A stretch of DNA of 35,507 nt from Desulfocapsaceae bacterium (GTDB lineage Bacteria; Desulfobacterota; Desulfobulbia; Desulfobulbales; Desulfocapsaceae). The notes beneath the pieces were generated by a model that worked only from the letters and a program-made list of their open reading frames with translations, made no database searches and had not been told where the DNA came from. The DNA is taken from contig JAUSAB010000018.1 in assembly GCA_030653035.1 (NCBI GenBank), positions 1 through 35,507 on the forward strand, in the 5' to 3' direction. The translations under genes and the position numbers were made by a program. This document shows positions 1-33,864 of this stretch, piece by piece; position 1 is the first letter of the stretch, and each line of letters begins with the position of its first letter.

Positions 1-2523
1 TGAAAGGGCCAGACTGGCCACAGTGGGAGCGTGTCAGAGACGGGCGCAATGATCGATATTATTGGTACCGATCGAGGTGCGCATGAACTTCTGCATGAGG
101 AAGTTTTCCTCATTGGTGGCCCGGGCGCAACTGAATCCGGCGATGGAATCCGGGCCATACATGGCCTTGAGATCAAAGAGTTTCTTGGCCGTATAATCAA
201 AGGCCTCATCCCAACTGGTCTCCACCAGCATCCCATTCTTGCGGATCAGCGGTTTGGTCAGCCTCTCTTTATGCTGGATAAACTCATAGCCGAATCGACC
301 CTTGACGCATAAGGCCCCATAATTTGGCGCCTGCTCCGGATCGGCCGTGACCTCAATCACCGTGTCGCCCTTGACCCGAAGGATGATCTGACATCCCGCC
401 CCGCAATAGGGGCAGGTACTGCGGACCTCTTTCACCGGTTCGCTGTGGAGAGGAATGATCTGCGCCTTCTTGTTCAAGGCCCCGGTGGAACAGTTATCCA
501 CACACTTGCCACAGGAGACGCAATTATCCTTAAAGCCCAGAAACAACCCAACTGGCCGGCCCTTGTCATCAAAAGACTCGGCACCAAGTTCCAGGGCATC
601 ATACTCACAGGCCCGCTCGCAACACCCACAGAAGATACATTTATTTTTATCAACAATAATGAGGGGATGCGAATAATCCATGGCATAAACGGGTTTCGTG
701 CCCATGCCGGTCTTGTTGATGTTCAGATTGTATTCGATGGACAGATTCTTGAGATTGCAGCGATCATAGGCAGTACACCCGCAAGAAAGACACCGTTCAG
801 CCTCATGCTGGGCCATCTTCTCGGAGAATCCCAGCTTCACCTCGTCAAAATCTTGACTACAGATCTCAGGGGGCCGGGTGGGCATCTTTTCCCGGAGTTT
901 GATATCAATTCCGTCAAAATTCTTCAGATCAACATCATCAAAACCCTTGCCGCGGGTGAAGTTAAATCGACTATCACCCTCATCTTTCGCTGTTCCCATG
1001 ACATAGGCATGGATGTTATCAGCGGCACGACGGGCAGCAACCACGGCCTGAATGACCGATCTTGGGCCAGTGACTGCGTCACCACCGGCAAAAACCCCTT
1101 CAATATTGATCTGCGAGGAACGCACATTCGCATCGATGGTCTTGTTGGGAGAAAGAACAATGGATTTTTCCAGGTCGCCGCCGCTGAACTGGTCGTCAAC
1201 AGCAAGCTGCCCCAGGGATGAGACAATGGAATCAACCAACAGGGTGTTGGTCGAGCCGGCAATAGACTCAGGGTGCCTGATCCCTTTGGCATCGGGCTCA
1301 CCCAACTTCATCCGGATCAATTCCAACTTCAACCGGGAACCTTGATCACCCGCGTCACAGATCTCAACAGGGGAGGCCATAAGCAGAAACTGAACCCCTT
1401 CTTTACCTGCCTCGCGGATATTACGCTGATGGGCCGGCATCTCTACCCGCGAACGAGGATAAATAACCGTCACCTCCGCCACCCCCTGACGGAGAAGGGT
1501 GCGTGCAACCTCCATGGCAATATTATTGCCGCCGACCACCGCCGCCCGCCGTCCCATATCAGGCCTTTTCCCTTTCGCTACCTGGCGCAGATATTTCATA
1601 GCCGAATAGGTGTGCGGATTGACTGCCCCAGGGATCTCCAGAGGGACATCAACACCTGCCCCGGTAGCAAGATAGATAGCGGCATAGCCCTGATCTTTCA
1701 GGGACTGCAGGGTAAAATCCTTTCCCCATCTCTGACTGAGCTTGACCGAAACGCCCAGACGCAGGATGGTATTAATCTCATAATTCAAAACATCACGAGG
1801 GATTCGATACTCCAGAAATCCATAACGCAAAGCCCCGCCCAGCATGGGTGAGGATTCGAAGATGGTCACATCGTGCCCTTTGCGCGTTAGAAAATGGGCG
1901 GCAGTCAGACCGGACGGCCCACCACCAATCACAGCGATCCGTTTTCCCGTGGGAGAATCCTTAGGGATCTCCAGATCAATCTCATGACTCATGCACCAGT
2001 CGGCCACAAAGCGCTTCAGGTGATTAATGGAAACAGGTTCATCAACGAGAATACGACGACAGCGGGTCTCACAGAAACGGGGACAGACCCGGCCCACGGA
2101 AAAGGGCAGCGGGTTGCGTTCCATGACCAGACGCAAGGCCTCTTCATACTGCCCCTTGGCCACATGGGCAATATAGCCCTGGACATTGATCTGGCCAGGA
2201 CAGGTGAGGTTGCATGGGGCCTTACAATCACCAAAATGGGTCTCGGCCAGGATGGCCAGACGCTCCAGGCGATGGGCAACAACCTTTGGAGACTCCGTGG
2301 CAACAACCATACCGTCCTGGGCCAGAGCAACACAGGCACGAATCATCCCTTCCTGCCCTTCAATCTCCACCATGCACATCTGGCAGGGGGTATCTGCCGG
2401 TTTTCCCGGCACATGGCATAAGGTCGGAATATGAATGTCCGAACGTCTGGCAACCTCAAGAACGGTAAGGCCAGCCTCAGCCACAATCTCGGCACCATTA
2501 ATGGTAAGTGTTACAGTCGTCAT
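1..2523 (-). CDS. fdhA: GltD-like / formate dehydrogenase alpha fusion, selenocysteine-containing (partial)
   Basis: Oxidises formate or reduces CO2 at a Mo/W-pterin site, linked to a flavin NAD(P)-type module; probably cytoplasmic. Domains: N-terminal 2Fe-2S ferredoxin (C36, C47, C50, C64); GltD-like FeS domain (about 95-180, Cys 100/104/108/147/151/155); FAD Rossmann fold IGGGPSGLTAAH (199-210); NAD(P) fold VVGGNNIAMEVA (329-340); a Cys cluster at 578-589; two 4Fe-4S ferredoxin motifs (C629-C639 and C668-C678); then the molybdopterin domain opening with CPYCGAGC (704-711) and C739. Residues 825-829 read HCARL, then UGA (34-36), then HAPTVASLALS to the edge. This is the FdhA catalytic Sec motif (E. 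coli FdhH has CARV-U-HGPSVAG, from memory), so I extend the CDS through the UGA to the window edge. Last gene of the leftward Wood-Ljungdahl cluster, 207 bp after acsC. Most of the pterin domain lies outside the window. A conventional gene caller would end it wrongly at position 34. Confidence 0.92.
7..19 (-). promoter_or_regulatory. Putative bacterial SECIS hairpin of fdhA
   Basis: On the minus strand the 13 bases read GGCCA-GUC-UGGCC: a 5-bp perfect stem with a 3-nt apical loop starting with G. The loop lies 19 nt after the UGA at 36-34. This fits the known bacterial SECIS pattern (short stem, G early in the apical loop, roughly 16-37 nt after UGA). Function is inferred from position and shape only. 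Confidence 0.7.
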
Positions 2524-2730: not shown

Positions 2731-4086
2731 TTATTTCGATGGTTTCCATTCCTTCAGGAAGACGGGTAGATGCCCAGCCTCTCTTGGCCCAATGATAATA
2801 TTCCAAGTCGGAAGCTCCTCTTCCAACTCTCCCTTGAGGGAGGCTAGATAACCGGGAATGATCAGATCGCGATGTTTCACTTTGTCCTCAATCCCGCTCT
2901 TCTTCACAAACTGGGCGATCATATCGGCACCGAATTTGCCGGCGGCCCAAGCGGTAAGGACAGAAAGGCCCTCTGTATCTTTAATAAGCAGCCAGGTCGG
3001 CACCTTGGAGCCCTCGATCTCGCCGGATACAATAAAATAAGTGAGCGAGAAGTTACAGGTAATGACCACTGGCGAATCTTCGCCGGGCCCGGTCAGCGGA
3101 TAGACATCCTCGGTCACCACCATTGGCCGCTGCGGATCGGTAAAGATGTTCATCCGCTCCAGCAGCAATGGGAAGAGGATATCGCCCTGCAGATCAGAGA
3201 GGACAATGATGCCCGCATACTTGGCGATCAGAATAGAGGCAATCATTGCCTCCATCATCGGATCATCACTCATCTCGCAGGGGAAGGTCAGGGTCGGAAA
3301 GCCCAGGGGCTTGAACTTGGCCTTGACCGCCGAGCGTCTGGCCACGACATTATCTTCAAAGGCGGCGCGCAGGGTACGGGCGCCGGTATCAATGGCCAGA
3401 TCCTTGAGACCAGCTGCCAGCAAGGTATTGATCACATCGACACAGTTATCCAGGTTTGTCCCCTTGACTGCCAAAGGCGCCGAACTATCCTTGGCCACCT
3501 GAGCCATGGCAGCGGCATTATCAGCAGTAGCGCCATAGAGCAGCGGAATACGGGCCCCGCAAAGCTTGGCAGCCGCAGCCAGATGGGCCGGGGTATCACT
3601 GATCAGGATGAGTGCGGCACGGGCAGAACCATCCAGCACTTTCTGTACCAGGGCGGTAAAGGAGGCCTCATCGTTTTTGCTGTCCTTGACCGCAATCAAC
3701 TCAGCCTTCATGATCACGCCGACCCGCTCATACACAAGGCTATTAAAACGGTCGATCCGGCCGCTGACAGCGGCCTCGTCCATATCGGCGGTCACCAGCA
3801 CGGCAATACCGGTGGGGTTGACGAATCGTTTTTCATGCCGGAACATGCAGGTCTCACCACCCGCGGTAAAGGCATTGTCACCGTTCCCCAGCTTCAAGGT
3901 CCGGATAGGCGGAGCAGAGGCCTCACCAATGGTGGCCTTCGCCTCGTCACTGACATAGGGACAGGTATCGATTTCCACCTGACCAGCCGCAACCTTCATG
4001 GCAAATGCCAGACAGGTAGGGATGCTGCACTCGCCGCAATTCTTTTTAGGCAGCATCTTGAGAATTTGAATGCCGGTTAAAGCCAT
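2731..4086 (-). CDS. acsC: Corrinoid iron-sulfur protein large (gamma) subunit
   Basis: Large subunit of the corrinoid/iron-sulfur protein that carries the methyl group from methyl-THF (via AcsE) to the A cluster of acetyl-CoA synthase. The 451-aa length fits the family. The N-terminal 4Fe-4S motif is visible as C17, C20, C25 and C42 in the typical KKNCGECSIPTCLAFA context; the rest fits a TIM barrel followed by a C-terminal B12-binding domain. The start is well supported by a GGAGG Shine-Dalgarno 8-9 nt upstream. Lies between acsB and fdhA on the same strand. Its partner, the small subunit, is not a separate gene here but the C-terminal half of the 6556-9234 fusion. Confidence 0.95.
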   Translation of the reverse strand: MALTGIQILKMLPKKNCGECSIPTCLAFAMKVAAGQVEIDTCPYVSDEAKATIGEASAPPIRTLKLGNGDNAFTAGGETCMFRHEKRFVNPTGIAVLVTADMDEAAVSGRIDRFNSLVYERVGVIMKAELIAVKDSKNDEASFTALVQKVLDGSARAALILISDTPAHLAAAAKLCGARIPLLYGATADNAAAMAQVAKDSSAPLAVKGTNLDNCVDVINTLLAAGLKDLAIDTGARTLRAAFEDNVVARRSAVKAKFKPLGFPTLTFPCEMSDDPMMEAMIASILIAKYAGIIVLSDLQGDILFPLLLERMNIFTDPQRPMVVTEDVYPLTGPGEDSPVVITCNFSLTYFIVSGEIEGSKVPTWLLIKDTEGLSVLTAWAAGKFGADMIAQFVKKSGIEDKVKHRDLIIPGYLASLKGELEEELPTWNIIIGPREAGHLPVFLKEWKPSK

Positions 4087-4212
4087 GATGATATCCTCCA
4101 GTTGGATCTACAAAAAATGAGTCATAGTAAGCTGTTCAACGTAGTTCGTGCGTAACTCACTAATAAAAATTCAATAATTGGGCTTTGTATGTTCTGGGGC
4201 CAGACGCCACTC

Positions 4213-4246
4213 AAAGAAACAGCCGGAAAAGATTGGCTGTTTCTTT
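4213..4246 (-). terminator. Hairpin in acsB-acsC intergenic region (distal)
   Basis: A perfect 12-bp stem AAAGAAACAGCC (4213-4224) / GGCTGTTTCTTT (4235-4246) with a 10-nt loop, second of two tandem hairpins downstream of acsB. No clear U tract follows on the minus strand, so it may be an attenuator, mRNA-stabilising or processing structure rather than a full terminator. Confidence 0.5.
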
Positions 4247-4257
4247 GGAGCGGCATA

Positions 4258-4314
4258 AGGTGCCGTAAACTCAGGCAGCAAGAAGAAGACCTTGCTGCCT
4301 GAATAACGGCACCT
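4258..4314 (-). terminator. Large hairpin starting at the acsB stop codon
   Basis: Outer arms AGGTGCCGT (4258-4266) and ACGGCACCT (4306-4314) enclose inner arms TCAGGCAGCAAG (4271-4282) and CTTGCTGCCTGA (4291-4302). The total is about 21 paired bases with short internal loops. It begins within the acsB stop codon region. It lacks a U tract, so partial termination or 3'-end protection of the upstream mRNA is the likeliest role; this is inference. Confidence 0.55.
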
Positions 4315-6517
4315 AAACAGCCGTCTCCATCTCCAGGGCCGGATGTCCTTTTTCCTTGAGGAATTTATAGATCTCCTCTTCGGTGGTTCCCTGCTCTTCC
4401 GTGGCAATCATGTCATACAGCTCAGGCATGCCGATATTCTTGCAGACCTCTTTGAGTTTCTCGCTGATCTCTTCCTTGAGCATCTTGGGCATCCATACCA
4501 CCCGTTTGAGTCCGCCTTCAGCCTTGAACAGCTTGTTACTGGTCATATAATGCTTACTGACGCCCATAAAGCCAGGAGTCTGCATACCGCCACCGGCCAT
4601 ACCGGCCAGACTGGTAAACTTCATTCCCGATGGGGTCATGCCTAAGAAGTCGCGGTTGACAACCATGATCCCGTTACAGGTCGGCAGCATGGCGGCAATG
4701 GCCTCAAAGCAGCCACAGGCAGTCATCGGATTATTCATCAGCGAATAACAGCTGACCTCAGGAACCGCTCCCCGTGAGGCCTGGTTCACGAACTCATTGA
4801 TACCGACATAATAGCCGTTATCAGGGTCAGTACACTCACCCTTCTCGATAGGCTGGTTAGGACCGGTGGGGTTAATCTGATAGGAGGCCTTGCCATCCAG
4901 CCAGTTATAGGCGCCGCACATGCCGATGCGCTCGGGGGTGATCACACAGACATGGCTGGGAGCGAACGATTGACACAAGGTACAGGAGTAGAACACATCC
5001 TCGGTCTCATCGGTCATGGCGCCCAGACGGAGGTCGCGCTCGGTATAGACCGAAGTGGCCAGGGCCATAACCTCTTTTACTTTATCTTCAACGGTAAAGA
5101 GCTTCACCTGGATCTTGTCAACGATAGCACCGAATTCCTGATGGAGCTTACCGTGCAGCACCTTGCCGATGTGTTTGAAGGAGAAGCCCTTTTCCACGGC
5201 CGCCTTACCAATCCGCACCCACATGATATTCCGCTGACCCATGTGCATGATGCCCTGGATATAGTTGGTCAGATGATGGAACTGGCGCTCAAGGATCGGC
5301 TCGAAGTCCGACTGCATCTGTCGCCCGGCCACTTCAACCAAAATACCCAGGGGCAGATTCTGACCCTGCTGGATGTCACAGATATCCGGGCCCTCAAGGG
5401 TAACCAGACCATCCTCCACTTCATCCATTCCTTTGGAGATCAGCACCTCAACACCTGGGGTCCGGCCACCGCCGCACTCCATGAACAGCTCATCTTTACG
5501 CACCCGCTCACCTTCAAATGCCGGGCCAAAGGCGAGAGGAATGTCGATTTTGGTGATATTCACCTTCAGGCCGCGCACCTCAATGGCCTTCTGGACGATC
5601 TCATTGTGGGGGATATTGGAGACGACATGCTCGTAGGTACAGATACCGGTAGGCAGCACCTCGGGGATATCATAATCAGAGATGGTCGGAAAGCCCCAGT
5701 TGATAGCGCCGGCGGCATTGGCATACCACTCGTCGCTGACCGGCCCGAAGGCCATGACAAAGGCAAAAGTCCGATCCTTATTGTAGAGCAGATTGCCCTT
5801 GTAATCACCAGGCTTGATCCCGCCAAAGGCCATGGCCACGCGGCAGGCAAAACCGATAGCGAAGACCGCGGTGGTATAACTCTGGCCAAAGGGCACCAGA
5901 CGGGTATTCCATCCCACCTGGACATTATTTTTGACCAGCAGGTCAGGCATGGTCAACCCACCCGTCTGATCGTGCATGAAGATATAGAGATTCTTTTCCT
6001 GAAGTTCGAGGGCAATCCTGGAGGCCACTTCCTTATCGGCCGGAGTTCCCATGATTGCGGCAAACCCGGGGGCGGTGCCGTCAACAAACTCCACTCCGCG
6101 TTTCCGGAAGATAACATCGTCGGCCGCACCGAGCCAGATATTATCGGCAGTGGGGTCCTCGGTCTTGGTGTAGAAATTAGGCGTATTCAGATAGCGAATG
6201 GCCTCATACATCTCCTCGGCAAAGAAGGTGGCCATACCGGCATCGAGGGCCGGCGCCAGATAAGGCAGCCAGATATCCTCGGTGACAACGGGGGGCATCA
6301 GCGTGCGGCATTCCTGGAAGATATCCTTCATATCCCCCAGTTTTTCCACCTTCGCACCCAGCATACTGTAGATAACCGGCAGATAATAAGCAGTATTGGG
6401 AAAGGAGACCTCATGATCAGCACCATACTTCTTCAGCGCCTCCTCATAACTCTCCTCAGCCATATCTATAATTTTCCGGGCGCCACGGATGGCAGCGGAA
6501 CAGATGATCTTTGACAT
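4313..6517 (-). CDS. acsB: CO-methylating acetyl-CoA synthase (A-cluster subunit)
   Basis: Condenses CO, a methyl group and CoA into acetyl-CoA, or runs in reverse, on the Ni-Ni-4Fe4S A cluster. 734 aa, as expected for bacterial AcsB. A-cluster ligands are complete: C512, C515, C524, C534 and the C601-G602-C603 motif. Their spacing (3, 9, 10, 67 residues) equals that of Moorella AcsB as I remember it. The start is supported by GGGAG upstream. It sits between the metF-acsD fusion and acsC, matching its interaction with CODH and the corrinoid protein. Two strong hairpins follow the stop. Nothing is missing from the active site. Confidence 0.97.
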   Translation of the reverse strand: MSKIICSAAIRGARKIIDMAEESYEEALKKYGADHEVSFPNTAYYLPVIYSMLGAKVEKLGDMKDIFQECRTLMPPVVTEDIWLPYLAPALDAGMATFFAEEMYEAIRYLNTPNFYTKTEDPTADNIWLGAADDVIFRKRGVEFVDGTAPGFAAIMGTPADKEVASRIALELQEKNLYIFMHDQTGGLTMPDLLVKNNVQVGWNTRLVPFGQSYTTAVFAIGFACRVAMAFGGIKPGDYKGNLLYNKDRTFAFVMAFGPVSDEWYANAAGAINWGFPTISDYDIPEVLPTGICTYEHVVSNIPHNEIVQKAIEVRGLKVNITKIDIPLAFGPAFEGERVRKDELFMECGGGRTPGVEVLISKGMDEVEDGLVTLEGPDICDIQQGQNLPLGILVEVAGRQMQSDFEPILERQFHHLTNYIQGIMHMGQRNIMWVRIGKAAVEKGFSFKHIGKVLHGKLHQEFGAIVDKIQVKLFTVEDKVKEVMALATSVYTERDLRLGAMTDETEDVFYSCTLCQSFAPSHVCVITPERIGMCGAYNWLDGKASYQINPTGPNQPIEKGECTDPDNGYYVGINEFVNQASRGAVPEVSCYSLMNNPMTACGCFEAIAAMLPTCNGIMVVNRDFLGMTPSGMKFTSLAGMAGGGMQTPGFMGVSKHYMTSNKLFKAEGGLKRVVWMPKMLKEEISEKLKEVCKNIGMPELYDMIATEEQGTTEEEIYKFLKEKGHPALEMETAV

Positions 6518-6555
6518 AATCTAAACTCCCTTAATTATAAGGCTATTTCCTGAAA

Positions 6556-9234
6556 TCAGCCCATCAGGCCATTGATCAACGCCTTGGTCATGGCCACCGC
6601 TTTGGGATGACGCATGATCAAAACCTCACCACCAGCCAGCAGCATACAACTTGCCGTCAGCGCCTCCATCATGATCCCCCGCTTCTCCTGATCGCCAATC
6701 ATGGCATCAGTCGGCAGTTTGGTCTCCTTGGCCTTCCACACCTCACGACCAAGATTACAGATAATGGGCACCTGCAGTTTTTCGTCCTGTTGAATGAGAG
6801 CCGCCATGCGGATACGCTCCATGACTGAATAGGTGTACTCAATTCCGTATCCCAAGGCACCCACGGAAGGATCCATCAGCACCGTTTCAAGGGAAACACC
6901 CAGGTTCTGAAGCAGGATATTCAACTGCTTGGCCAAGTTGACGTCAATGGGCGAGGCCGCGACGATAGCATGCTGAAAGGCCATGGCGGTGGCGCCGATG
7001 GCACGATAGTTGGCATCTTCCAGAGGGGCCAGACAGACCTTCTTGTTGCCGATAACCGAGGTCAGGTCCCGCAGGGTCTCGGTATCCTTCTCATTATTAC
7101 CGCAACCCCAGATGATGATCGGCACCTCAACCGCCTCGATGACCTGAGCGGCTATCTTGGCCGCATCAGCAGCAGAACGATTCATGCCGTTGGGATCTGT
7201 GGAGACAAGAGAAATATTGATGGCCTCGGCGCCGTACACCTTGATACACTTCTGGGCCCAGGCCACCGGATTGTCCATAACATCGGTGAAATGCCGGGCC
7301 AGGGTTTCCGGCCAGTCTTCAGGACGGGCATCAAGGACATCCATGGCAATCAGGGATTTATGGGGTTGCTTGCCTTCAAAGAGATGGAACGGCATAGAAG
7401 CAGCGCCACCAACGGTAACGGTATGATCGCCATTACCAAGGACAGTCTCCCGGATAACGCCGGTATATTTTTCCTTGTAGGATTTCTCATCGACCTTGGT
7501 GGCACGCTCGGCAAGAGTCGTTTTTTCAAGGGCCAACGCCGCCACGGCAAAATCAGCACCGGCAGATGTTGCTGCCGGCTGGGCCGCATCCTTGGCGTCT
7601 ACCTCTGCCTTAACCTTGGCGGCATCGGCAGCAGCTTTCGCCTTGGCCTCTTCTTCAGCCTTGGCTTTGGCGGCATCAGACGCGGCCTTTTCTCTGGCAG
7701 CCTCTTGCGCCTTAGCCTGAGCAGCAGCCTCATGTGCTTTGGACTGGGCGGCAGCCTCTTCCAATGCCTTGGCCTGAGCCTCAGCCTTCATCTTTGCCTC
7801 GGCCGTAGCCTTGGCGGCATTAACAGCCGCTGTATCCACTTTCGGTGCCGCAGGGGCAGCCGCTGGAGCAGCAGGCGCAGGAGTTGCTGTCGCCTTTTCC
7901 GGTTCACGATTGAGAATGGCATGGACACCGGCAAAGCTGGTGATGGCCGCAAACTGCTCATCGGACAGACCATAGGCCTTTTTCAGGGCTGACAGCCCTT
8001 GATTCATGGCCTCCAAGGCCATGACACGCTCTTTTTCATTCATCTCATGCTCTCCTGCGTCATCTATTGCACCCGTCGGCACAGTTGTTCCCATCGTATT
8101 CGTATCAGCCGCAGCCACCTGAGCGCCACCTGCGCTCGGCGCCGCCGTCTGAGCCTTCATCATCAACGCTTCCGCTTCTCGGCGGGCAGCAGCAACAATC
8201 GCCTCTGCCTCCGCTCTGGCCTTGGCAAGTACTTCTTCCATATCAACAGTCTGGACCTGGATGGACTCCCGGCTCTCTTTCTTGTCCGCCACAGCCTGGG
8301 CAGCCGATACCTCCATGATCGATGGGCGCGGCAGCAGACCGGCCCGTTTCAGGATCTCCGGCACCGCGCTTTCCCATTCAATGGCCATAACATGAACACC
8401 GGCAACACCCTTGATCTCCTTGACCTGCCGGATAATATCAACACAGATGTTGATCCCTTCCTCCTGCTTGTCCTTGGCATCCTGCATCCGCTGGATCACT
8501 TCATCGGGCACATCCATGCCGGGTACGGAACTCTTCATGTACCGGGCCATGCCAACGGATTTTGGAGGGGTAACGCCGGCCAGGATATAGACCTTTTCAT
8601 CCAGTCCGAGGTCACGTACCATCTCCATGAACCGGGTGAATTTCTCGACATTATAGATGATCTGGGTCTGGATAAAATCAGCGCCCGCAGCCACCTTTTT
8701 CCCTAAACGGACTGCCCGGTATTCAAAGGGATGGGCAAAAGGATTGGCGGCAGCACCCAGGAAGAGCCGAGGTTCATTGCTCTTGATCTCCTCCCCGCAC
8801 TGAAACCGTTTGTCATCACGCATGGCCTTGACCATGCCCAGCATCTGGATGGAGTCCATATCAAAGACCCCTTTTGACCCAGGATGATTGCCGAATTTCT
8901 GGTGATCACCGGTCAGACAGAGCAGGTTTTTAAGACCTAAAGCCTGCGCACCAAGGATATCCGATTGCATGCCAATCCGATTCCGGTCACGACAGGTCAT
9001 CTGGATCACCGGTTCAACCCCTTCATTCTGGGTAATCAGTCCCGCAGCAATGGATGACATCCGGACGATTGCCGTCTGGCAGTCGGTAATGTTCACCGCA
9101 TCGACATGACCTTTCAACAGGCGCGCCTTTTCCCGCACCACCTCAGGATTGCCATTTTTAGGAGGCCCCAGTTCACCTGTTACCACAAACTCTCCCGCCT
9201 TCAACACCCTTTCAAGATTACTCCCCGATTTCAT
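6556..9234 (-). CDS. Fusion: methylene-THF reductase (MetF) - helical linker - corrinoid protein small subunit (AcsD)
   Basis: Single uninterrupted 892-aa frame. Residues 1-304 are a complete MetF-type flavin TIM barrel (ends with the usual AGLLPRP). Residues 305-555 are a linker: a charged Ala/Glu/Arg helix (about 330-365, similar in style to ATPase stalk helices), a small helical segment (395-445), a Pro/Ala stretch (447-465) and a long Ala/Lys/Glu coiled-coil-like run (470-552). Residues about 560-892 match the CFeSP small subunit AcsD/CdhD (TIM barrel, DPSVGALGYGIEY at 788-800), of normal length. MetF makes methyl-THF; AcsD with AcsC accepts the methyl via AcsE. Lies between cooS and acsB. 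In the families I know these are two genes, so the fusion may tether consecutive parts of the methyl branch. No separate MetV or AcsE is seen. Confidence 0.92.
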   Translation of the reverse strand: MKSGSNLERVLKAGEFVVTGELGPPKNGNPEVVREKARLLKGHVDAVNITDCQTAIVRMSSIAAGLITQNEGVEPVIQMTCRDRNRIGMQSDILGAQALGLKNLLCLTGDHQKFGNHPGSKGVFDMDSIQMLGMVKAMRDDKRFQCGEEIKSNEPRLFLGAAANPFAHPFEYRAVRLGKKVAAGADFIQTQIIYNVEKFTRFMEMVRDLGLDEKVYILAGVTPPKSVGMARYMKSSVPGMDVPDEVIQRMQDAKDKQEEGINICVDIIRQVKEIKGVAGVHVMAIEWESAVPEILKRAGLLPRPSIMEVSAAQAVADKKESRESIQVQTVDMEEVLAKARAEAEAIVAAARREAEALMMKAQTAAPSAGGAQVAAADTNTMGTTVPTGAIDDAGEHEMNEKERVMALEAMNQGLSALKKAYGLSDEQFAAITSFAGVHAILNREPEKATATPAPAAPAAAPAAPKVDTAAVNAAKATAEAKMKAEAQAKALEEAAAQSKAHEAAAQAKAQEAAREKAASDAAKAKAEEEAKAKAAADAAKVKAEVDAKDAAQPAATSAGADFAVAALALEKTTLAERATKVDEKSYKEKYTGVIRETVLGNGDHTVTVGGAASMPFHLFEGKQPHKSLIAMDVLDARPEDWPETLARHFTDVMDNPVAWAQKCIKVYGAEAINISLVSTDPNGMNRSAADAAKIAAQVIEAVEVPIIIWGCGNNEKDTETLRDLTSVIGNKKVCLAPLEDANYRAIGATAMAFQHAIVAASPIDVNLAKQLNILLQNLGVSLETVLMDPSVGALGYGIEYTYSVMERIRMAALIQQDEKLQVPIICNLGREVWKAKETKLPTDAMIGDQEKRGIMMEALTASCMLLAGGEVLIMRHPKAVAMTKALINGLMG

Positions 9235-9323
9235 CGGACGTGCTCCTCTTCAGAAAAACTCGCTTCATTTATAGCAATTCAGTTTTAAAAAAATCGCAAC
9301 AAAACCATCAAGGAGATGGCTAA

Positions 9324-9432
9324 GCAAAAAGGCCCAAAGACAAGGCGCGTAAATCCTGAGGAATGAGGCGTACTTTTGGGTACGCCGCAGTGACGAAGGA
9401 TGTACGGCAACGAAGTATTTGGGACTTTTTGC
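9324..9432. repeat. Imperfect long palindromic intergenic repeat
   Basis: Lies in the 205-bp gap between cooS and the metF-acsD fusion. The outer segment GCAAAAAGGCCCAAA (from 9324) matches the reverse complement of the right end (GCAAAAAGTCCCAAA, ending 9432). The centre is a perfect GGCGTAC / GTACGCC pair (9367-9373 / 9380-9386) with a TTTTGG loop. The whole unit can fold into one long imperfect hairpin. From memory, similar sequences recur in intergenic regions of deltaproteobacterial genomes. Confidence 0.65.
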
Positions 9433-9439
9433 GACGTCA

Positions 9440-11422
9440 TCATTTCTGCCCACATCCCATTCCTGGAATCCCAGAGGTCAGATCCCGGCGCATCCCCATA
9501 TCAAAAAGGACACGATCCTGTTTCTTGTTGATGCCCAAAGCCTCACGTTTCTCATCAATAGCCTTGATCATCTTGTGAGCCAATTTAATTGGGTCTTCTT
9601 CGTAATCCCAGCAGGCCCCGTACTCTTCCTTCATGCCATCAAGAAGATACTTGTTAAAGGCCTTGGCGCCGGTAACCGGCAGATTCTGGAACACGATATG
9701 GGCGCCGCTGGCCACAAAATACTGGCCAATAGCCACTGCCTTTTCACTCATCCACAAGGGGGCTGTGCCGCAGGCCGGCAGGTCGGCAATGGACTCACCC
9801 AGACCACCCTCTTTCACCATCTCGGTCAGAGCGATCAACAGTCGGCTGTTATCAACGCAGGAGCCGACATGCAGGACCGGCGGCATACCAACGGTCTCGC
9901 ACACCTCAGCCAGTCCCGCCCCGCAGTATTCAGCCGCCGCCTCAGGCCGCATCAGACCTTTACGGCCCAGAGCCTGGGCCGCACAGCCAGTAGCCAGAAT
10001 GAGGATATTATTCTTTAACAGCTCGACGGCAATCTTGTAGTGGACATCATCAGCGTATTTATAATGCTCGCAACCAACCAACGCCGCCACGCCCTTGATC
10101 CGGCCGTTGATAATATTATCATTAAGAGGCCGGTAGCTCTGACGGAAACGTCCGCCCAGCATATAGTTGATGGTTTCATGACTGAATCCCACCACCACAT
10201 CCAACTTCTTGTCGGTAGGGATATAATAGTCGCCCCGTTTTTTAAAGTTATTGATGGCCTTGATCAGAATTTTCTTGGCCGAACCCATGGCATCTTCTTC
10301 TTCAAACTGAATATGAATGGCATCAGGCATCTTGGCCCGATAATTGGTAGTGATAATGTCAGTATGTTTGCCTTTGACGATCTGGGCCACGGATGGCATG
10401 ACACACTGAACATCAACCACCATGGCCTCAACCGCGCCGGTGGCCAGCACCATCTCCTGCTGGATAAAACTGCCGGCCACGGGAATCCCGCGACGCATGA
10501 GGATCTCATTGCCGGTACAACAGACCCCGGCCAGATTGAGCCCCTTGGCCCCCACCTTTTTGACCAGGGCCAGGATCTCCGGATCTTCGGCGGCCAGACA
10601 GAGCGACTCGGCCAGCAACGGCTCATGACCATGGACGGTAACATTGACATGATCACCCTTCAACACGCCAAGATCGACAATAGCACGCCGCGGCACCGGG
10701 GTGCCGAACATGATATCCGTCAGCTCCGTGGAAAGCATGGACGCGCCCCAGCCATCAGCGAGGGCACACCGGGAACCCTGGAGCATGATGTTGCGGAATT
10801 CCTGATCAACGCCCATATGGGTCCGATGCATGGTCTCCACCACCTCACGGTCAATGCCGCGCGGCTCAACACCCAGTTTTTTCCAGATCGCCTGTTGTTT
10901 TTTCGGTGCCCGCTTGATCATGGTGAGCAGACCATCCTGCTGACCAAACTCAGCCAGGGCCTTGTTGCCGAGTTCAAGGGCGATCTCATTCTTGTCTCGT
11001 CCCTCGGTGGCGATACCGAAAATCTCGGCCAGGACATGCAGCTTCTGCACATCCTTGATCTCGTGCGGTGTTTCCCCCTTGGCGGTGGCGATAAAGCCGC
11101 GCACCATCTCCCGGGCATGATCGGTATGGGCAGCAGTTCCTGCCGCGATAATGCGGGCAAAATTCCTGGCGGCCACGGTATCAGCCGTAGCCCCGCAGAC
11201 ACCCACCATCGAGTCAACACCATCAATAATCTGACACGGCCCCATATTGCAGACCTTACAGCAGGTGCCGCTGGAACCGAAAAGGCAGGATGACATGCCT
11301 CGGCTTTCAATGCGGTCATAGGCCGTGCGTACCTGCTTGGCCAGGTCCTGATTCAACAGATCCTTGGTCGATGCGCCGGTGATCATGTCACAGGAGCTGC
11401 ATCCGCTTCTCTCATCACTCAT
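9440..11422 (-). CDS. cooS: Ni-dependent carbon monoxide dehydrogenase catalytic subunit
   Basis: Interconverts CO and CO2 and supplies CO to acetyl-CoA synthase. 660 aa, normal for CooS/AcsA. N-terminal FeS ligands are present: C46 and C54 (D cluster) and C55, C58, C63, C76 (B cluster). C-cluster candidates, by family position, are H266, C301/C302, C340, C451, C480 and C522. GGAGG lies just upstream of the ATG. Its place between folD and metF-acsD/acsB points to the anabolic or acetate-oxidising CODH/ACS complex rather than a stand-alone CO-oxidising enzyme; no cooF or hydrogenase is nearby. Could also be named acsA. Confidence 0.95.
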   Translation of the reverse strand: MSDERSGCSSCDMITGASTKDLLNQDLAKQVRTAYDRIESRGMSSCLFGSSGTCCKVCNMGPCQIIDGVDSMVGVCGATADTVAARNFARIIAAGTAAHTDHAREMVRGFIATAKGETPHEIKDVQKLHVLAEIFGIATEGRDKNEIALELGNKALAEFGQQDGLLTMIKRAPKKQQAIWKKLGVEPRGIDREVVETMHRTHMGVDQEFRNIMLQGSRCALADGWGASMLSTELTDIMFGTPVPRRAIVDLGVLKGDHVNVTVHGHEPLLAESLCLAAEDPEILALVKKVGAKGLNLAGVCCTGNEILMRRGIPVAGSFIQQEMVLATGAVEAMVVDVQCVMPSVAQIVKGKHTDIITTNYRAKMPDAIHIQFEEEDAMGSAKKILIKAINNFKKRGDYYIPTDKKLDVVVGFSHETINYMLGGRFRQSYRPLNDNIINGRIKGVAALVGCEHYKYADDVHYKIAVELLKNNILILATGCAAQALGRKGLMRPEAAAEYCGAGLAEVCETVGMPPVLHVGSCVDNSRLLIALTEMVKEGGLGESIADLPACGTAPLWMSEKAVAIGQYFVASGAHIVFQNLPVTGAKAFNKYLLDGMKEEYGACWDYEEDPIKLAHKMIKAIDEKREALGINKKQDRVLFDMGMRRDLTSGIPGMGCGQK

Positions 11423-11488
11423 CGTGTTTCCTCCAGAATAAATCGTATCGGAACGATAACTCGCTAACTCGTATTGTAATTTTCTGTA

Positions 11489-12376
11489 TCAGATCAGCTT
11501 TGCAGCAATCTTGGCCGCCTGCACCGTGTTCTTCATCAGCATTGTGATCGTCATGGGGCCGACACCACCCGGCACCGGAGTGATACAGGATGCCTTCTCT
11601 TTTACCGACTCAAAATCAACGTCCCCGGCAAGGATTGCCTTACCGGCCTCAGTCATACCGATACGATTGACACCGACATCGATGATAGCAACCCCCTCTT
11701 TCACCATATCAGCCGTCACCATCTTGGGCACGCCGACTGCGGCAATCAGAATATCGGCACGGCGGCAATGGGCCGCCATATCCTTGGTGCGGGTATGACA
11801 AAGAGTGACCGTGGCATTGCCGCCGGCACGTTTCTGCAGCATCAGGTTGGCAATGGGTTTGCCCACGATGTTACTCCGACCGATCACCACCACCTCAGCA
11901 CCACTGGTCTGCACCCCGCTGCGCACAAGCAGCTCAAGAATTCCATGGGGAGTACAGGGCAGAAAACACTGCTCGCCCAGCACCATTTTGCCGACATTCA
12001 CCGGATGAAAACCATCCACATCTTTGTCAGGATTGATGGCATAGAGGACATTGGCCTCGTTGATATGCTTGGGCAGAGGAAGCTGCACCAGAATCCCGTG
12101 GATCTTGGCATCCTTATTATATTTATCCACCAGTGTCAGCAGATCCGCCTCAGTGGTGTCCGCAGCCAGTGTGACCTGCTCGGAATGGATGCCGAGGGCA
12201 TGGGCAGTCTTGTTTTTGGCCGCCACATAGGACTGAGAGGCAGGATCTTCGCCCACCAGAATCGTGACAAGGCCGGGGGTAATCCCATGTTTTTCCACCA
12301 GCTCGGTAACCTCAACCTTCAACTCTTCACGAATTGCCTTCGCCACTTCGGTACCGCTTATGATCTTTGCACTCAT
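11489..12376 (-). CDS. folD: Methylene-THF dehydrogenase / methenyl-THF cyclohydrolase
   Basis: Bifunctional enzyme interconverting formyl-, methenyl- and methylene-THF in the methyl branch; cytoplasmic homodimer. 295 aa, standard length. Recognisable blocks: SYVAAKNKTAHALGI (catalytic Lys region), the LVQLPLPKHI and PDKDVDGFHPVN segments, VVIGRSNIVGKP (NADP-binding loop) and the C-terminal TPVPGGVGPMTITML. First gene of the leftward cluster, 66 bp before cooS. Start ATG at 12376 is preceded by AGGAATTGAG. No fhs (formyl-THF synthetase) accompanies it in the window. Confidence 0.96.
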   Translation of the reverse strand: MSAKIISGTEVAKAIREELKVEVTELVEKHGITPGLVTILVGEDPASQSYVAAKNKTAHALGIHSEQVTLAADTTEADLLTLVDKYNKDAKIHGILVQLPLPKHINEANVLYAINPDKDVDGFHPVNVGKMVLGEQCFLPCTPHGILELLVRSGVQTSGAEVVVIGRSNIVGKPIANLMLQKRAGGNATVTLCHTRTKDMAAHCRRADILIAAVGVPKMVTADMVKEGVAIIDVGVNRIGMTEAGKAILAGDVDFESVKEKASCITPVPGGVGPMTITMLMKNTVQAAKIAAKLI

Positions 12377-20278: not shown

Positions 20279-20580
20279 CACGGCTTGAGAGCCGATGTAT
20301 TTATACTTATTTTTCTACTTAAAAGCCGTTACGAAATAACTATATTTTTTTATACCATTTCGTTAGGGCTTCTTATGCCGTTCTTACCGTTTAAATTTTA
20401 CGGTTATTTTATTGCAACGGCTTGGTATTGAATCAATGTAAGATTTTTTTCATGATTCAACATCACCCTGTCCGGCAATGGTGTCTGACAGGCACCTCTT
20501 CGCTCTCTATCCTTATTGATGAGAGCCGAAAATCAGGGATACACATATCCCGACAATCATGGGTCCACGAGGAGGAACAC
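20279..20580 (+). promoter_or_regulatory. rpsF leader / promoter region with multiple hairpins
   Basis: 302 bp holding, in order: TTGACA (20275-20280) with only a weak TATTTA at 17-bp spacing, a short hairpin CGGCT/AGCCG (20281-20294), palindromic element copy B, an inverted repeat TTGAATCA/TGATTCAA (20428-20435 / 20453-20460), CCTGTC/GACAGG (20467-20472 / 20487-20492), and GGGATA-CACA-TATCCC (20536-20551). The strong Shine-Dalgarno GAGGAGGA (20568-20576) follows. Ribosomal protein S6:S18 leaders are known autoregulatory RNAs in many bacteria; I see stems but cannot confirm that motif. Confidence 0.4.
20323..20423 (+). repeat. Intergenic palindromic element, copy B
   Basis: Perfect outer inverted ends AAGCCGTT (20323-20330) and AACGGCTT (20416-20423). 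Inner arm GCCGTTACGAAAT (20325-20337) pairs with ATTTCGTTAGGGC (20357-20369) with two mismatches. A second hairpin ACCGT/ACGGT lies near 20386-20405. Same orientation, length (101 vs 102 bp) and layout as copy A, but the second stem differs in sequence while keeping pairing. Confidence 0.8.
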
Positions 20581-29987: not shown

Positions 29988-30950
29988 ATGCTGCAAATCG
30001 CCGACCTGACATTCGTTTCCCCCTTTATCCTTGCCCCTCTGGCTGGATATACCGATCTTCCCTTTCGCCAGCTTTGCCGCGAGTTCGGGGCCGGACTGGT
30101 GGTCTCTGAGATGATCAGTTGTCATGGTCTGGCCTACAGACAGGCTAATACCCTGGCCATGCTGGCCTCAAACCCTGCGGAGCGCCCTGTCTCCTTTCAG
30201 CTTTTTGGAGCCGATCCAGCCATCATGGGTCAGGCCGCGGCCATACTCAGCACCTTTCACCCTGATTGTATTGATATCAATATGGGCTGTCCGGTCAAAA
30301 AAGTGACTAAGCGGGGGGCTGGCGCTGCCCTGATGCAGGATCCGCCACTGGCAAGGGCTATCATTACCAGCGTTATCAAAAACAGCAGGATTCCAGTCAC
30401 GGTTAAGACCAGGATCGGGGTGGACAGCCAGCATATCTCAGCTGTTGATTTTGCGAAAATGGCAGAAGACGCCGGGGCTGCCGCCATCACGATCCATGGC
30501 CGTACCTGGGCCCAAGGGTTCACCGGAACCGCTGACTGGAATATTATCGCCCAAGTGAAACAGGCTGTTTCTTGTCCAATCATCGGCAATGGTGACATCC
30601 ACTCCCATGCCCAAGGTCTGGAAATGATGCGCCAAACCGGCTGCGACGGAATCATGATTGGCCGGGCGGCCCTTGGCAACCCCTGGGTCTTTTCTCCTGA
30701 CGGTAAACCAACTGAGCTGTCCCCTCTACTGAATGGTGTCTTCCGCCATCTGGAGCTGATCGAACTCACGTTGCCGCCGGGGCACATGCCGGGCTGCATC
30801 AAAAATCATCTGGGCCGCTACTTCAAAGGGCTGCACGATAGCGCCCGATACCGGAAGATGATCTATGACTGCAAAGACCTTGCGGCCCTGCATCACGCCC
30901 TGTCCCTTATCAGAGAGAGCAGCCAAAACGATCAGCAGGAACAAGGATGA
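29988..30950 (+). CDS. dusB: tRNA-dihydrouridine synthase (DusB-like)
   Basis: FMN enzyme reducing specific tRNA uridines. 320 aa. TIM-barrel start FILAPLAGYTDLPFRQLC, then VSFQLFGADP, DINMGCPVKKVTKRGAGAALM with catalytic Cys101, VKTRIGVD, ITIHGRTWAQGFTGTADW and GIMIGRAALGNPW. No clear ribosome site before ATG 29988. Its stop overlaps the rarA start (ATGA), so the two are translationally coupled; the third gene overlaps rarA too. Confidence 0.93.
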   Translation: MLQIADLTFVSPFILAPLAGYTDLPFRQLCREFGAGLVVSEMISCHGLAYRQANTLAMLASNPAERPVSFQLFGADPAIMGQAAAILSTFHPDCIDINMGCPVKKVTKRGAGAALMQDPPLARAIITSVIKNSRIPVTVKTRIGVDSQHISAVDFAKMAEDAGAAAITIHGRTWAQGFTGTADWNIIAQVKQAVSCPIIGNGDIHSHAQGLEMMRQTGCDGIMIGRAALGNPWVFSPDGKPTELSPLLNGVFRHLELIELTLPPGHMPGCIKNHLGRYFKGLHDSARYRKMIYDCKDLAALHHALSLIRESSQNDQQEQG

Positions 30951-32326
30951 TGGCACCGAAAATGACCAGAGACAAATCTCCACTTCATAGTTCATCCCCT
31001 TTAGCTGAACGGATGCGGCCCCGAACCCTTGATGAGTTCGCCGGCCAGGAGACCCTTATCGGACCAGGAAAGATGCTGAGTACCGTGATGAGCATAGGTG
31101 TCCTCCCATCCCTGATCCTGTGGGGTCCTCCCGGCACCGGCAAGACCACACTTGCCAAGATATTGGCAGAATCCACATCTGCCTCTTTTGTCTTTTTTTC
31201 AGCCGTCCTCTCAGGGGTGAAAGAGGTCCGGCTGATTGTAGAACAGGCCCAAAAACTTCGCGACACGGAAAACAGGGCAACCGTTTTTTTCATTGACGAG
31301 ATCCACCGTTTCAATAAAAGCCAGCAGGATGCCTTTCTTCCCCATGTGGAATCCGGCCTTTTTACCCTCATCGGCGCCACCACCGAGAACCCCTCATTCC
31401 ACGTCACAGCCCCCCTGCTTTCCCGTTGCCGGGTCCTCGTCCTTCAGGCGCTGGCAAGGGAACACCTGCAGGCCATCTTCCTTCGCGCCCTGGCTGATCC
31501 TGAAAATGGTCTGGGACACTTTCAACTCCATTTTACAGATGAAGCACTGGCCCAGTTAATCAGTCTGGCCGACGGTGACGCCAGGACGGGTCTCAATATC
31601 CTGGAGATTGCGGCAACCCTTTCTCTCGACCGTTTTCAGACTGCACCGGACACTGAGACTGCACCGACCATCACTACCAACGACATTGAAGAAGCGGGAC
31701 AGCATAAATCCCTGCGTTACGACAAGGATGGCGAAGAACATTACAATCTGATCTCGGCCCTGCACAAGAGCCTGCGCGACTCAGACCCGGATGGCGCTCT
31801 CTACTGGCTTTACCGGATGCTGGAGGCCGGTGAAGAACCGCTCTACATTCTTCGCCGCCTGATCCGTTTTGCCTCAGAGGATATTGGCGTCGCTGATCCA
31901 CAGGCCCTCAGCCAGACCATCAGCTGTCAACAAGCCTTCCAGACCCTTGGCCTCCCGGAAGGGACGCTGGCCTTGGCCCAGGCCGTAGTCTATCTCGCCA
32001 CCGCCCCCAAAAGCAATGCCCTGTATGCAGCAGAATCAGATGTTCGCCACCATATAAGCCGGACCGGCTCCCTGCCGGTCCCAATGCACCTGCGCAATGC
32101 CGCAACCAGTCTCATGAAGAAGCTGGGATACGGCAAGGGATATCAGTATGCCCACGATCAGGTGCAAGGCCTGGTGGAGCAGAACCATCTGCCGCCGGAG
32201 CTTAACGGCACCCATTTTTATTCACCCTCCACCCGAGGCTATGAGGCGGTGATCAAAGACCGGCTCAGCAAGTGGCGTCAGATCCTTCAACAGCGAAAAC
32301 AGGACCACAATGAAAGCAAAAAATAA
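30947..32326 (+). CDS. rarA: Replication-associated recombination protein A (MgsA/RarA AAA+ ATPase)
   Basis: Clamp-loader-like AAA+ ATPase acting at stalled replication forks. 459 aa: LAERMRPRTLDEFAGQETLI, Walker A GPPGTGKTTLAK, Walker B VFFIDEIHRFNKSQQD, sensor-1 IGATTENPSF, then the C-terminal helical tetramerisation region (DPDGALYWLYRMLEAGE, APKSNALYAAE, MHLRNAATSLMKKLGYGKGY). All expected motifs are intact. Starts at an ATGA overlap with dusB and its 3' end overlaps the next gene by 17 bp, indicating one transcript. Confidence 0.96.
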   Translation: MMAPKMTRDKSPLHSSSPLAERMRPRTLDEFAGQETLIGPGKMLSTVMSIGVLPSLILWGPPGTGKTTLAKILAESTSASFVFFSAVLSGVKEVRLIVEQAQKLRDTENRATVFFIDEIHRFNKSQQDAFLPHVESGLFTLIGATTENPSFHVTAPLLSRCRVLVLQALAREHLQAIFLRALADPENGLGHFQLHFTDEALAQLISLADGDARTGLNILEIAATLSLDRFQTAPDTETAPTITTNDIEEAGQHKSLRYDKDGEEHYNLISALHKSLRDSDPDGALYWLYRMLEAGEEPLYILRRLIRFASEDIGVADPQALSQTISCQQAFQTLGLPEGTLALAQAVVYLATAPKSNALYAAESDVRHHISRTGSLPVPMHLRNAATSLMKKLGYGKGYQYAHDQVQGLVEQNHLPPELNGTHFYSPSTRGYEAVIKDRLSKWRQILQQRKQDHNESKK

Positions 32327-33518
32327 TTCCCACCCCCCTACTCGCAGGCTCGTCAGCAAGGGCATTTTTCCCATCATTCTGTTCATAATCTTATTGACAT
32401 GCATGATCGCCACAAGGATCCATGCCGCTCCCCTGGAAACATTTCTCCTCTTTTACTCCAACAATATCCAGGGAGAGACAGAGGCCTGCGGCTGACACTC
32501 CAATCAATTGGGCGGGCTGTCCAAAAAAGCATTCCAGATCGAAAAGATCTCCACCGAACAACACAAGCCACATCTCTTTGTGGACTCCGGAAATCTACTT
32601 TTCAAGCAAGCGCAGATACCACCAGGGCCATCGCAGGAACAACTGAATGCAGAGGGAATCATCAAGGCCTATACCGCCATGCAGGTGGATGCGGTAGCGG
32701 TCGGCCCCCTTGATCTGGCTGCCGGCCTTGCCTTGCTGCAAACCAGTCAGAAGCAGGGATTCCCGTGGCTGTCCGCCAATCTTCTTGACCAGAAAGGCCA
32801 CCCATTGTTTCAACCGATGCTGATCAAAAAAATCGGGAAGATGAAGGCTGGGATCATTGGTTTGACCGGCGCTGTTTCCTCCCTGCCTACAGGGATCACG
32901 CGCGCCGACTGGCAGACAGTGCTGCCTGCCCTGATTAAAAAAACCACACGCCAATGTGACATCCTGATCCTGCTCTCCAGCCTGTCTCCTGCCGAAAATC
33001 AGGAAATAGCCCAGCAATTCCCGGCCCTGCACCTTATTCTGGCGGCGGACCTTGGCAGCGGCAATATGAACCCGCAGCAAGTCAACAATACCCTGATCAC
33101 TCAGACCGATCGTCAGGGGAAATATCAAGGCATTCTCACTATTGACTGGCAAAAAAGCGGCAGATGGGGAAAGGCAAAGGAAGAAGAACTGGCGGAGCTG
33201 CGCAACAGACTGAGCGCCCTTGACTGGCAGATCCAGCGGATGCGGCAGCAAACAGATCTTCAACAACCGGAGTATATCGACAAGATTGCTGTGGTGGAAA
33301 AGGACAAGCAGGCAGTGGAACAGCAGATCAAAACCCTGGCCTCTGATTCAGCAAACGGAAAGCCAGCACCCTGCAGCTTCAGCCATACCTTCCTGGTCCT
33401 CCAGCAATCCCTGCCCGAAGCCCCTGAGATCAAAGGTATCGTTACGGAGATCAAGCAACAGATCAACAACTTGCAACAAAACAAGACCAGCCGGAATCCC
33501 CCTATTCCTTCATTATAG
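32310..33518 (+). CDS. Exported UshA/5'-nucleotidase-like protein, probable selenoprotein (UGA at 32493-32495)
   Basis: 402 aa if UGA is read through. Basic N terminus then a hydrophobic signal/anchor (IFPIILFIILLTCMIA, ending near HAAPLE) sends it to the periplasm. The first conserved motif is FYSNNIQGETEACG-U62-HSNQLGGLSKKAF. Homologues, as I recall them, have SND..GE.EPCGC..NQLGGL, with Cys at the UGA site. The frame continues without shift as HLFVDSGNLLF, AVAVGPLDLAAGL, WLSANLLDQKG and GIIGLTGAV, all of the UshA-related type, then a coiled-coil-like region (about 290-350) and a Pro-rich end. Classical metallophosphatase ligands are poorly kept, so enzymatic function is uncertain. ATG 32310 has AGGA 5 nt upstream and overlaps rarA. 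Alternative reading: a truncated 61-aa peptide plus a pseudogene, less likely given the intact frame and SECIS-like hairpin. Confidence 0.8.
32508..32524 (+). promoter_or_regulatory. Putative bacterial SECIS hairpin in the UshA-like gene
   Basis: TTGGGC (32508-32513) pairs with GTCCAA (32519-32524), one G-U pair included, closing a GGGCT apical loop. The loop begins 18 nt after the UGA. Stem length, loop size, early G in the loop and spacing all fit the bacterial SECIS consensus. Confidence 0.65.
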
Positions 33519-33544
33519 GAAGAAACAGCCATTACCATCACGCA

Positions 33545-33592
33545 AAATATAAAAAAGCCTGCTCCAGAACGGGAACAGGCTTTTTTATATTT
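33545..33592. terminator. Rho-independent terminator, probably bidirectional
   Basis: AAATATAAAAAAGCCTG (33545-33561) and its exact complement (33576-33592) flank a 14-nt partially pairing centre (CTCC..GGGAA). The right arm supplies a T-run directly after the GC stem. It ends the dusB-rarA-UshA-like unit and may also end leftward transcripts. Confidence 0.9.
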
Positions 33593-33603
33593 CCAAAACT
33601 TTC

Positions 33604-33864
33604 TCAGTAAGCGAGAACGAGAACGATCACAGGCACTACGAGCCCGAGAAAGAATGCATTGAGACGACTACGCAGTGACAAAAATAAAACCCCTGTCTTC
33701 AATAGACCGGTGATGACAAACGCGATTGGAAAAAGAACCAGCGCAAGCACCATACCTCGACCACCGATCGAAGGGCCTTCCCCGGCGGAAGTGCTCTGTC
33801 CCTCTTGAACGTAATGTTGAACAATGGATTGAAACGACCCCGCCAAGGGTGTTCTTCGGCGCAA
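33604..33864 (-). CDS. Small hydrophobic hypothetical protein
   Basis: A possible 86-aa product with two C-terminal hydrophobic segments (GMVLALVLFPIAFVITGLL, FFLGLVVPVIVLVLAY) and a polar N-terminal half. The only start is TTG at 33864 (frame open up to a stop at 33901-33903), with no good ribosome site. The hydrophobic pattern is convincing as a membrane protein, the N-terminal half is not. It could be the 3' remnant of a longer gene. I do not recognise a family. Confidence 0.35.
   Translation of the reverse strand: MRRRTPLAGSFQSIVQHYVQEGQSTSAGEGPSIGGRGMVLALVLFPIAFVITGLLKTGVLFLSLRSRLNAFFLGLVVPVIVLVLAY

Follow-up and report, generated by a model that had tools for sequence, protein, structure and literature searches.

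Genomic locus and reading frame

The analysed window, a stretch of 35,507 nucleotides from a Desulfocapsaceae bacterium (contig JAUSAB010000018.1), contains a frame that a first-pass annotation, made from the letters alone, had proposed to encode a new type of selenoprotein. The frame is real and in phase: among its 402 codons the TGA at codon 62 is the only stop before the gene end, and it is embedded in the motif EACG-U-HSNQLGGL. Frames of this kind (at least 50 codons before and at least 250 after the TGA) occur five times in the window when both strands are counted and the selenoprotein frame is included, so that the split by itself is unremarkable and the case rests on comparison, namely on a family match, a conserved UGA and selection on either side of it. 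The features of the locus are collected in Table 1.

Table 1. Features of the UGA-containing gene and its surroundings (window coordinates).
Feature	Position	Strand	Size or basis
RarA/MgsA AAA+ ATPase gene, 17-nt overlap with the selenoprotein start	30947..32326	+	neighbour
Predicted selenoprotein gene, UshA-like (NF041198), haem-less form, Sec at codon 62	32310..33518	+	402 aa
Probable Sec signal peptide, about 39 residues, IHA before A-P	32310..32426	+	by eye; homologues
Metallophosphatase-like fold (5'-nucleotidase/UshA N-domain), metal ligands replaced	32427..33197	+	profile
In-frame UGA, predicted to be read as Sec, motif E-A-C-G-U	32493..32495	+	sequence and relatives
Bacterial SECIS-type hairpin, 6 pairs, loop GGGCU 18 nt after the UGA	32508..32524	+	
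Linker, helical in a poor model, probably coiled coil; precedes the tetrahaem domain in relatives	33198..33490	+	
Inferred site of lost tetrahaem-coding DNA	33491..33550	+	homology breakpoints
Terminator-like inverted repeat with T run	33551..33590	+	by eye

The upstream RarA/MgsA gene is probably without functional link to the selenoprotein. Among the related loci (36 located of 41 given) it recurs upstream in 19, and a convergent gene of about 309 codons, which looks to us like a manganese-dependent inorganic pyrophosphatase, recurs just downstream in 19 (L121-L154), the window not being one of them. This order looks like shared descent rather than function, and no conserved neighbour hinting at a function was found among the located loci. 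Elsewhere in the window, the reverse strand (2731-12376) carries an acetyl-CoA synthase/CO dehydrogenase cluster with methylene-THF genes, that is, the Wood-Ljungdahl pathway. Stretches of about 60-100 nt at 20324-20423 and 4180-4268 match non-homologous places in loci of the genus in both orientations, and may represent a small interspersed repeat.

Family assignment

The read-through protein scores 425.2 bits (cut-off 275) against the NCBIfam model NF041198, 'UshA-like (seleno)protein' (UshA_like_PCGU), and carries the C-G-U (or C-G-C) motif of that family as CG-UGA at codons 60-62. The match stops at profile position ~387-389 of 519, and the C-terminal tetrahaem region of the model (profile ~390-519) is absent from the window gene. 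We judge this region to be usual in the family but no condition of membership: the window gene passes the cut-off without it, and it is missing from 26 of the 81 loci that we fetched.

The family has also been in print for some time. A 2008 ocean-metagenome survey lists, in its passages on 'COG0737, UshA-like', a CxU family of 76 selenoproteins and 92 Cys homologues (PMC2398784); the family is tabulated as CxU in reviews of 2022 (PMC9312934) and 2026 (PMC13188914), and the relevant passage of a 2020 review has it as a predicted selenoprotein (PMC7435645). With a name in NCBIfam and a literature dating from 2008, the designation 'new type' cannot be upheld. What the locus holds is very probably an exported selenocysteine protein of a described and named family; what it adds, modestly, is a haem-less form that arose more than once. 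No haem domain is mentioned in the UshA-like passages of PMC2398784, PMC9312934, PMC13188914 and PMC7435645: the word 'cytochrome' is absent from the first of these, and in the parts of PMC9312934 and PMC13188914 covered here the passages with 'cytochrome' concern other families and no word starts with 'heme'. Neither the tetrahaem fusion nor its loss was found in the literature searched, which lay mostly outside subscription journals, while the makers of NF041198 will have seen the fusion, as their model covers the tail with its 519 positions.

Conservation of the UGA codon

Matches to NF041198 were found at E 0.001 in 56 of 58 genomes of relatives (over the cut-off in 43) and at E ≤1e-40 in 99 of 297 genomes sampled across the phylum (over the cut-off in 58), so that the family is widespread in the phylum; most of the loci fetched carry the Sec form. 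These 81 loci are the better-scoring matches, some of them below the curated cut-off, drawn from the hits in relatives and the top hits of the phylum sample, with a few genomes (G044, G051, G054) yielding two each; 73 were located by a script using the pattern CG[UC]...GG and the other eight by profile and eye.

CG-UGA stands at the Sec position in 72 of the 81 loci. Another four carry Sec in a different setting, three as CG[GS]-UGA (G017, G020, G036) and one as RGG-UGA, where Sec is kept and the Cys is gone (G019, locus L075). Cys replaces Sec (CG-TGC) in two, with the frame unbroken (G047 and one of the two G054 copies). Three have neither Sec nor Cys there: two divergent paralogues, and a haem-bearing copy whose CGU is replaced by SGR (G166, locus L103). 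Among the fetched loci are homologues with EPCG-C or EPCG-U before NQLGGL, which supports the family motif (EPCGC..NQLGGL) given in the first-pass annotation. The Pro preceding the motif Cys is present in 66 of the 73 aligned relatives; the window gene has Ala at this point. The alignment of the 73 script-located loci, which omits the eight odd ones, shows nine invariant columns (G55, C60, G61, U/C62, G68, G69, G94, D135 and L222 in window numbering), the invariance of the motif columns being partly built in because the rows were picked by the CG[UC]...GG pattern.

SECIS-type hairpin and selenocysteine machinery

The hairpin claimed downstream of the UGA is present, with TTGGGC (32508-32513) pairing with GTCCAA, one of the six pairs being G-T, around a loop GGGCT that begins at 32514. 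Taken alone it is within chance, as 21% of 200 synonymous shuffles are equally stable, and no Rfam match was found in the window at the gathering threshold, so that the SECIS assignment rests on the synonymous-shuffle test applied to the family. Over 66 distinct UGA sequences (identical ones merged; 200 rounds) the best hairpin of the form expected averages -6.87 kcal/mol versus -3.32 (sd 0.38) in shuffled sequences, a z of -9.3 that overstates the case because related sequences are not independent. A hairpin of -3.0 kcal/mol or below is found in 64 of the 66, versus 49% of shuffles. The stems vary while the pairs are kept (TTGGGC/GTCCAA, CTGGGC/GCCCAG, TTCGGG/CCCGAA, CTTGGC/GCCAAG). Weak support comes from counting pairs in the fixed register of the window: across 71 sequences (69 with UGA; two of the 73 were dropped as too near a contig end) 328 of 426 cells are paired, compared with 309 at a shift of -4 and 279 at +1. 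Family-wide, a hairpin such as a bacterial selenoprotein should have is thus found.

The source genome has the complete set of selA, selB, selC and selD. The three protein genes were each found over the cut-off, selD itself with an in-frame TGA, and the tRNA-Sec gene is over its cut-off in agreement with ARAGORN, with anticodon UCA. In the window, an ORF on the reverse strand (34-2523), similar to GltD and the formate dehydrogenase alpha subunit, stops at a TGA (34-36, reverse strand) in the context NNIDHCARL-U-HAPTV, which we take to fit the Sec site of FdhA; the ORF matches TIGR01591 positions 2-128, and the contig ends 33 bases past the TGA. A second tRNA-Sec-like gene (L047:1501-1599; G000:C55:34315-34413) scores 62.3 bits, over the Rfam cut-off, without an ARAGORN call, and lies about 60 nt upstream of an ORF beginning MSDYQPKILGFLCNWC that is presumably MvhD-like. 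This tRNA-like gene has a UCA anticodon and, by eye, no discriminator G. The base G73 is held essential for tRNA-Sec in the passage of PMC5330540 on this point.

Selection around the UGA

The 282 aligned codons of 15 genus copies (eight haem-less, seven haem-bearing) contain no indel; frame-destroying mutations after the UGA in close strains had been named in the first-pass annotation as evidence against its proposal. Mean dN/dS values (Nei-Gojobori) for the two halves of the region after the UGA are 0.145 and 0.134 in the haem-less copies; the haem-bearing ones give 0.178 and 0.165. For the 22 codons before the UGA the means are 0.104 and 0.114, respectively, the latter from 18 of 21 pairs, as three with no or saturated synonymous change were dropped. 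Purifying selection before and after the UGA implies that both sides are translated, and the motif conserved across the UGA, together with the two Cys forms with unbroken frame, argues that they form one protein. Overall, the selenoprotein claim is borne out by the NF041198 match, the sel genes, the conserved UGA, the family-wide hairpin and the two-sided selection.

Fold and replaced metal site

A profile built from 27 members matches, in the PDB, the 5'-nucleotidase 3ivd (2e-24) and UshA (~2e-21), as well as SoxB (1.7e-16). In the window protein the phosphatase motifs GD, GNHEFD and GHxH, which we take to supply the ligands of the two-metal centre, read GN, GPLDLA and ADLG; the suggestion that these ligands are degraded therefore stands for the window copy. 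Single histidines persist in some divergent members (e.g. GGH in G095, AH in G060), indicating that the ligand loss is graded. The profile alignment places CGU in the loop that follows the first ligand strand. At Pfam cut-offs no domain was found in the window protein, a C-terminal nucleotidase domain included, and at E 0.01 two of the 27 members match Metallophos and one YmdB. The AlphaFold models, both for the window protein with nine close homologues (mean pLDDT 48.3) and for a haem-bearing protein of the genus (G015; 41.7), are poor, and the predicted helices in the linker are the only feature used from them.

The tetrahaem tail and its absence from the window gene

What the first-pass annotation overlooked, while right about the selenoprotein and the replaced ligands and wrong about the new type, is the tetrahaem tail of most relatives. 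Four C-terminal CXXCH motifs are present in 54 of the 81 loci, G029 and G166 being added to 52 found among the 73 script-located ones, and no tail is present in 26; the remaining one (G034) is cut short by the end of its contig and belongs to neither count. In the 24 tail-less loci that were checked, a stop closes the frame and the sequence continues past it. All Cys and His of the CXXCH motifs, and two more His, are invariant in 52 aligned tails, and the tail of the G015 protein is identified by Pfam as Cytochrome_C554.

In a tree of the 73 sequences (midpoint root, bootstrap incompletely settled) the presence of the tail requires at least seven changes, three of them forced by well-supported branches, a count that is the same with or without G034 and does not separate losses from gains. 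Within the genus, on the other hand, the direction can be told. Among 17 genomes searched, 16 have the gene over the cut-off (the other, G010, 55% complete, has a weak match only): the tail is intact in seven (G001, G003, G005, G009, G013, G014, G015), decaying in place in three (G002, G008, G016) and not found in six (G000, the source genome, with G004, G006, G007, G011 and G012). The decaying tails indicate that the direction here is loss. In one of the three (locus L093, G016:C40:44000-55000) an insertion of about 2.3 kb (~5523-7870) splits the decaying tail, and more tail-like pieces, including a second partial copy, follow it.

No haem-tail match or remnant was found in the window, in or after the gene. 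Homology of the window to the haem-bearing G015 DNA ends at 33490; further on, the stretch 33551-33607, terminator included, recurs in G002 beyond the decayed tail. From these alignments we read the locus as having probably undergone a deletion of the haem-coding DNA, misassembly of one genome being unlikely when several genomes are without the tail. Loss of all c-type cytochromes was considered as the cause and rejected: the source genome keeps five Cytochrom_CIII matches, which makes a partner in trans possible, and has no match to Cytochrome_C554. The tail has been lost or gained more than once, so members cannot all depend on it for electron transfer.

Proposed function and alternatives

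Our main reading, to which we give a probability of roughly 0.6, is that the gene encodes a shortened UshA-like (PCGU) selenoprotein with a metal-less nucleotidase fold, exported and using Sec as a redox nucleophile. SelB acting on the hairpin would insert Sec at codon 62, and the protein, with a signal peptide recognised by eye, would be exported to the periplasm. Its domain would derive from the fold of metal-dependent 5'-nucleotidases, with the ligands lost and Cys-Gly-Sec placed at the entrance of the former active site, where Sec would act as the redox nucleophile. The fused tetrahaem cytochrome c would, in most relatives, take up or deliver the electrons, and in the tail-less organism a separate periplasmic cytochrome or thiol protein would have to stand in for it. 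The substrate might, at a guess, be a sulfur species or protein disulfides. Of the two roles suggested in the first-pass annotation, redox and metal binding, the first is favoured by the haem fusion and by the near-constant CG-U, and a periplasmic Sec-based redox protein is what the comparative evidence most likely points to. Against it, the 2008 survey, in its passage on the point, names UshA-like, SelD and FdhA as the three major families that lack a conserved redox motif based on Cys, setting UshA-like apart from those that have one (PMC2398784). The copy with Sec and no Cys implies either that a selenenylsulfide is not obligatory or that this copy (G019) has changed function. A more far-reaching history can be put forward tentatively, in which a dead metallophosphatase would have become a Sec-dependent periplasmic oxidoreductase with a tetrahaem module of its own, several lineages, this one included, would have shed the module and would supply the Sec domain with electrons in trans, and G019 would work with Sec alone.

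The same features allow other readings of the chemistry. A Cys-Gly-Sec motif binding a soft metal (e.g. copper, mercury or cadmium) would give the protein a chaperone or scavenging role in place of redox catalysis; C-x-U is a possible pair of soft-metal ligands, the scaffold was formerly a metal site, no partner enzyme lies nearby, and the survey passage just cited does not count the motif as redox (PMC2398784). The tetrahaem fusion in 54 of 81 loci points instead to electron transfer, and G019 retains Sec without Cys, so that we hold this reading to be unlikely. It is quite improbable that the protein has remained a hydrolase, be it a nucleotidase or a SoxB-like enzyme cleaving a sulfur conjugate with Sec in place of the metal-bound nucleophile: the profile similarity to UshA and SoxB that suggests it is offset by scores of only 28 and 32 bits with the UshA and SoxB equivalog models (cut-offs 600 and 550) and by the replacement of the DxH, GD, GNH and GHxH ligands in the window, even if some divergent members keep single histidines. 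A nucleotidase or SoxB function was rejected on these grounds.

Other doubts concern the gene itself. The loss of the tail could be one step in the decay of the remaining domain towards a pseudogene in this lineage, as the decaying tails of G002, G008 and G016 might suggest; dN/dS of the domain is, however, no higher in the eight haem-less copies (0.10-0.15) than in the seven haem-bearing ones (0.11-0.18), and all eight retain the UGA and the hairpin, which leaves little room for such decay. Most improbable of all is that the UGA is a true stop, in a pseudogene or between two genes of which the second has its own downstream start. UGA is a stop in translation table 11, an ORF with a TTG start exists (32508-33518), the window hairpin alone is within chance, and selection after the UGA, taken alone, would also fit a second start. 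This reading is countered by the conserved CG-UGA and the Cys forms with unbroken frame, by purifying selection on both sides without indels, by the family-wide hairpin and by the Sec machinery of the genome. The passages on the UshA-like family in the literature report no function that has been put to the test. The chemistry of the family is best hinted at by the haem fusion, and the natural haem-less forms, being smaller and requiring no haem maturation, would allow the Sec chemistry to be tested directly.

Comparison with known systems

With the SoxB thiosulfohydrolase the window protein shares profile similarity, and it differs in having a Sec motif where SoxB has its metal site; it scores 31.8 bits with the SoxB model TIGR04486 (cut-off 550). 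With the UshA and CD73 5'-nucleotidases it has in common, by profile, the N-terminal metallophosphatase domain, whereas it is without the ligands of their two-metal site and without a C-terminal nucleotidase domain recognised by Pfam. UshA-like selenoprotein family 2 (NF049981) is a distant relative to which the protein does not belong, with a score of 43.5 bits, below the cut-off of 140, and a CxU motif as opposed to the CxxU given for family 2 in the corresponding passage of PMC13188914. The closest likeness is to the NF041198 family itself, with which the window protein shares a score over the curated cut-off, the position of C-G-U and the UshA-derived domain, and from which it departs in the missing C-terminal tetrahaem part and in having EACGU where the family mostly has EPCGU.
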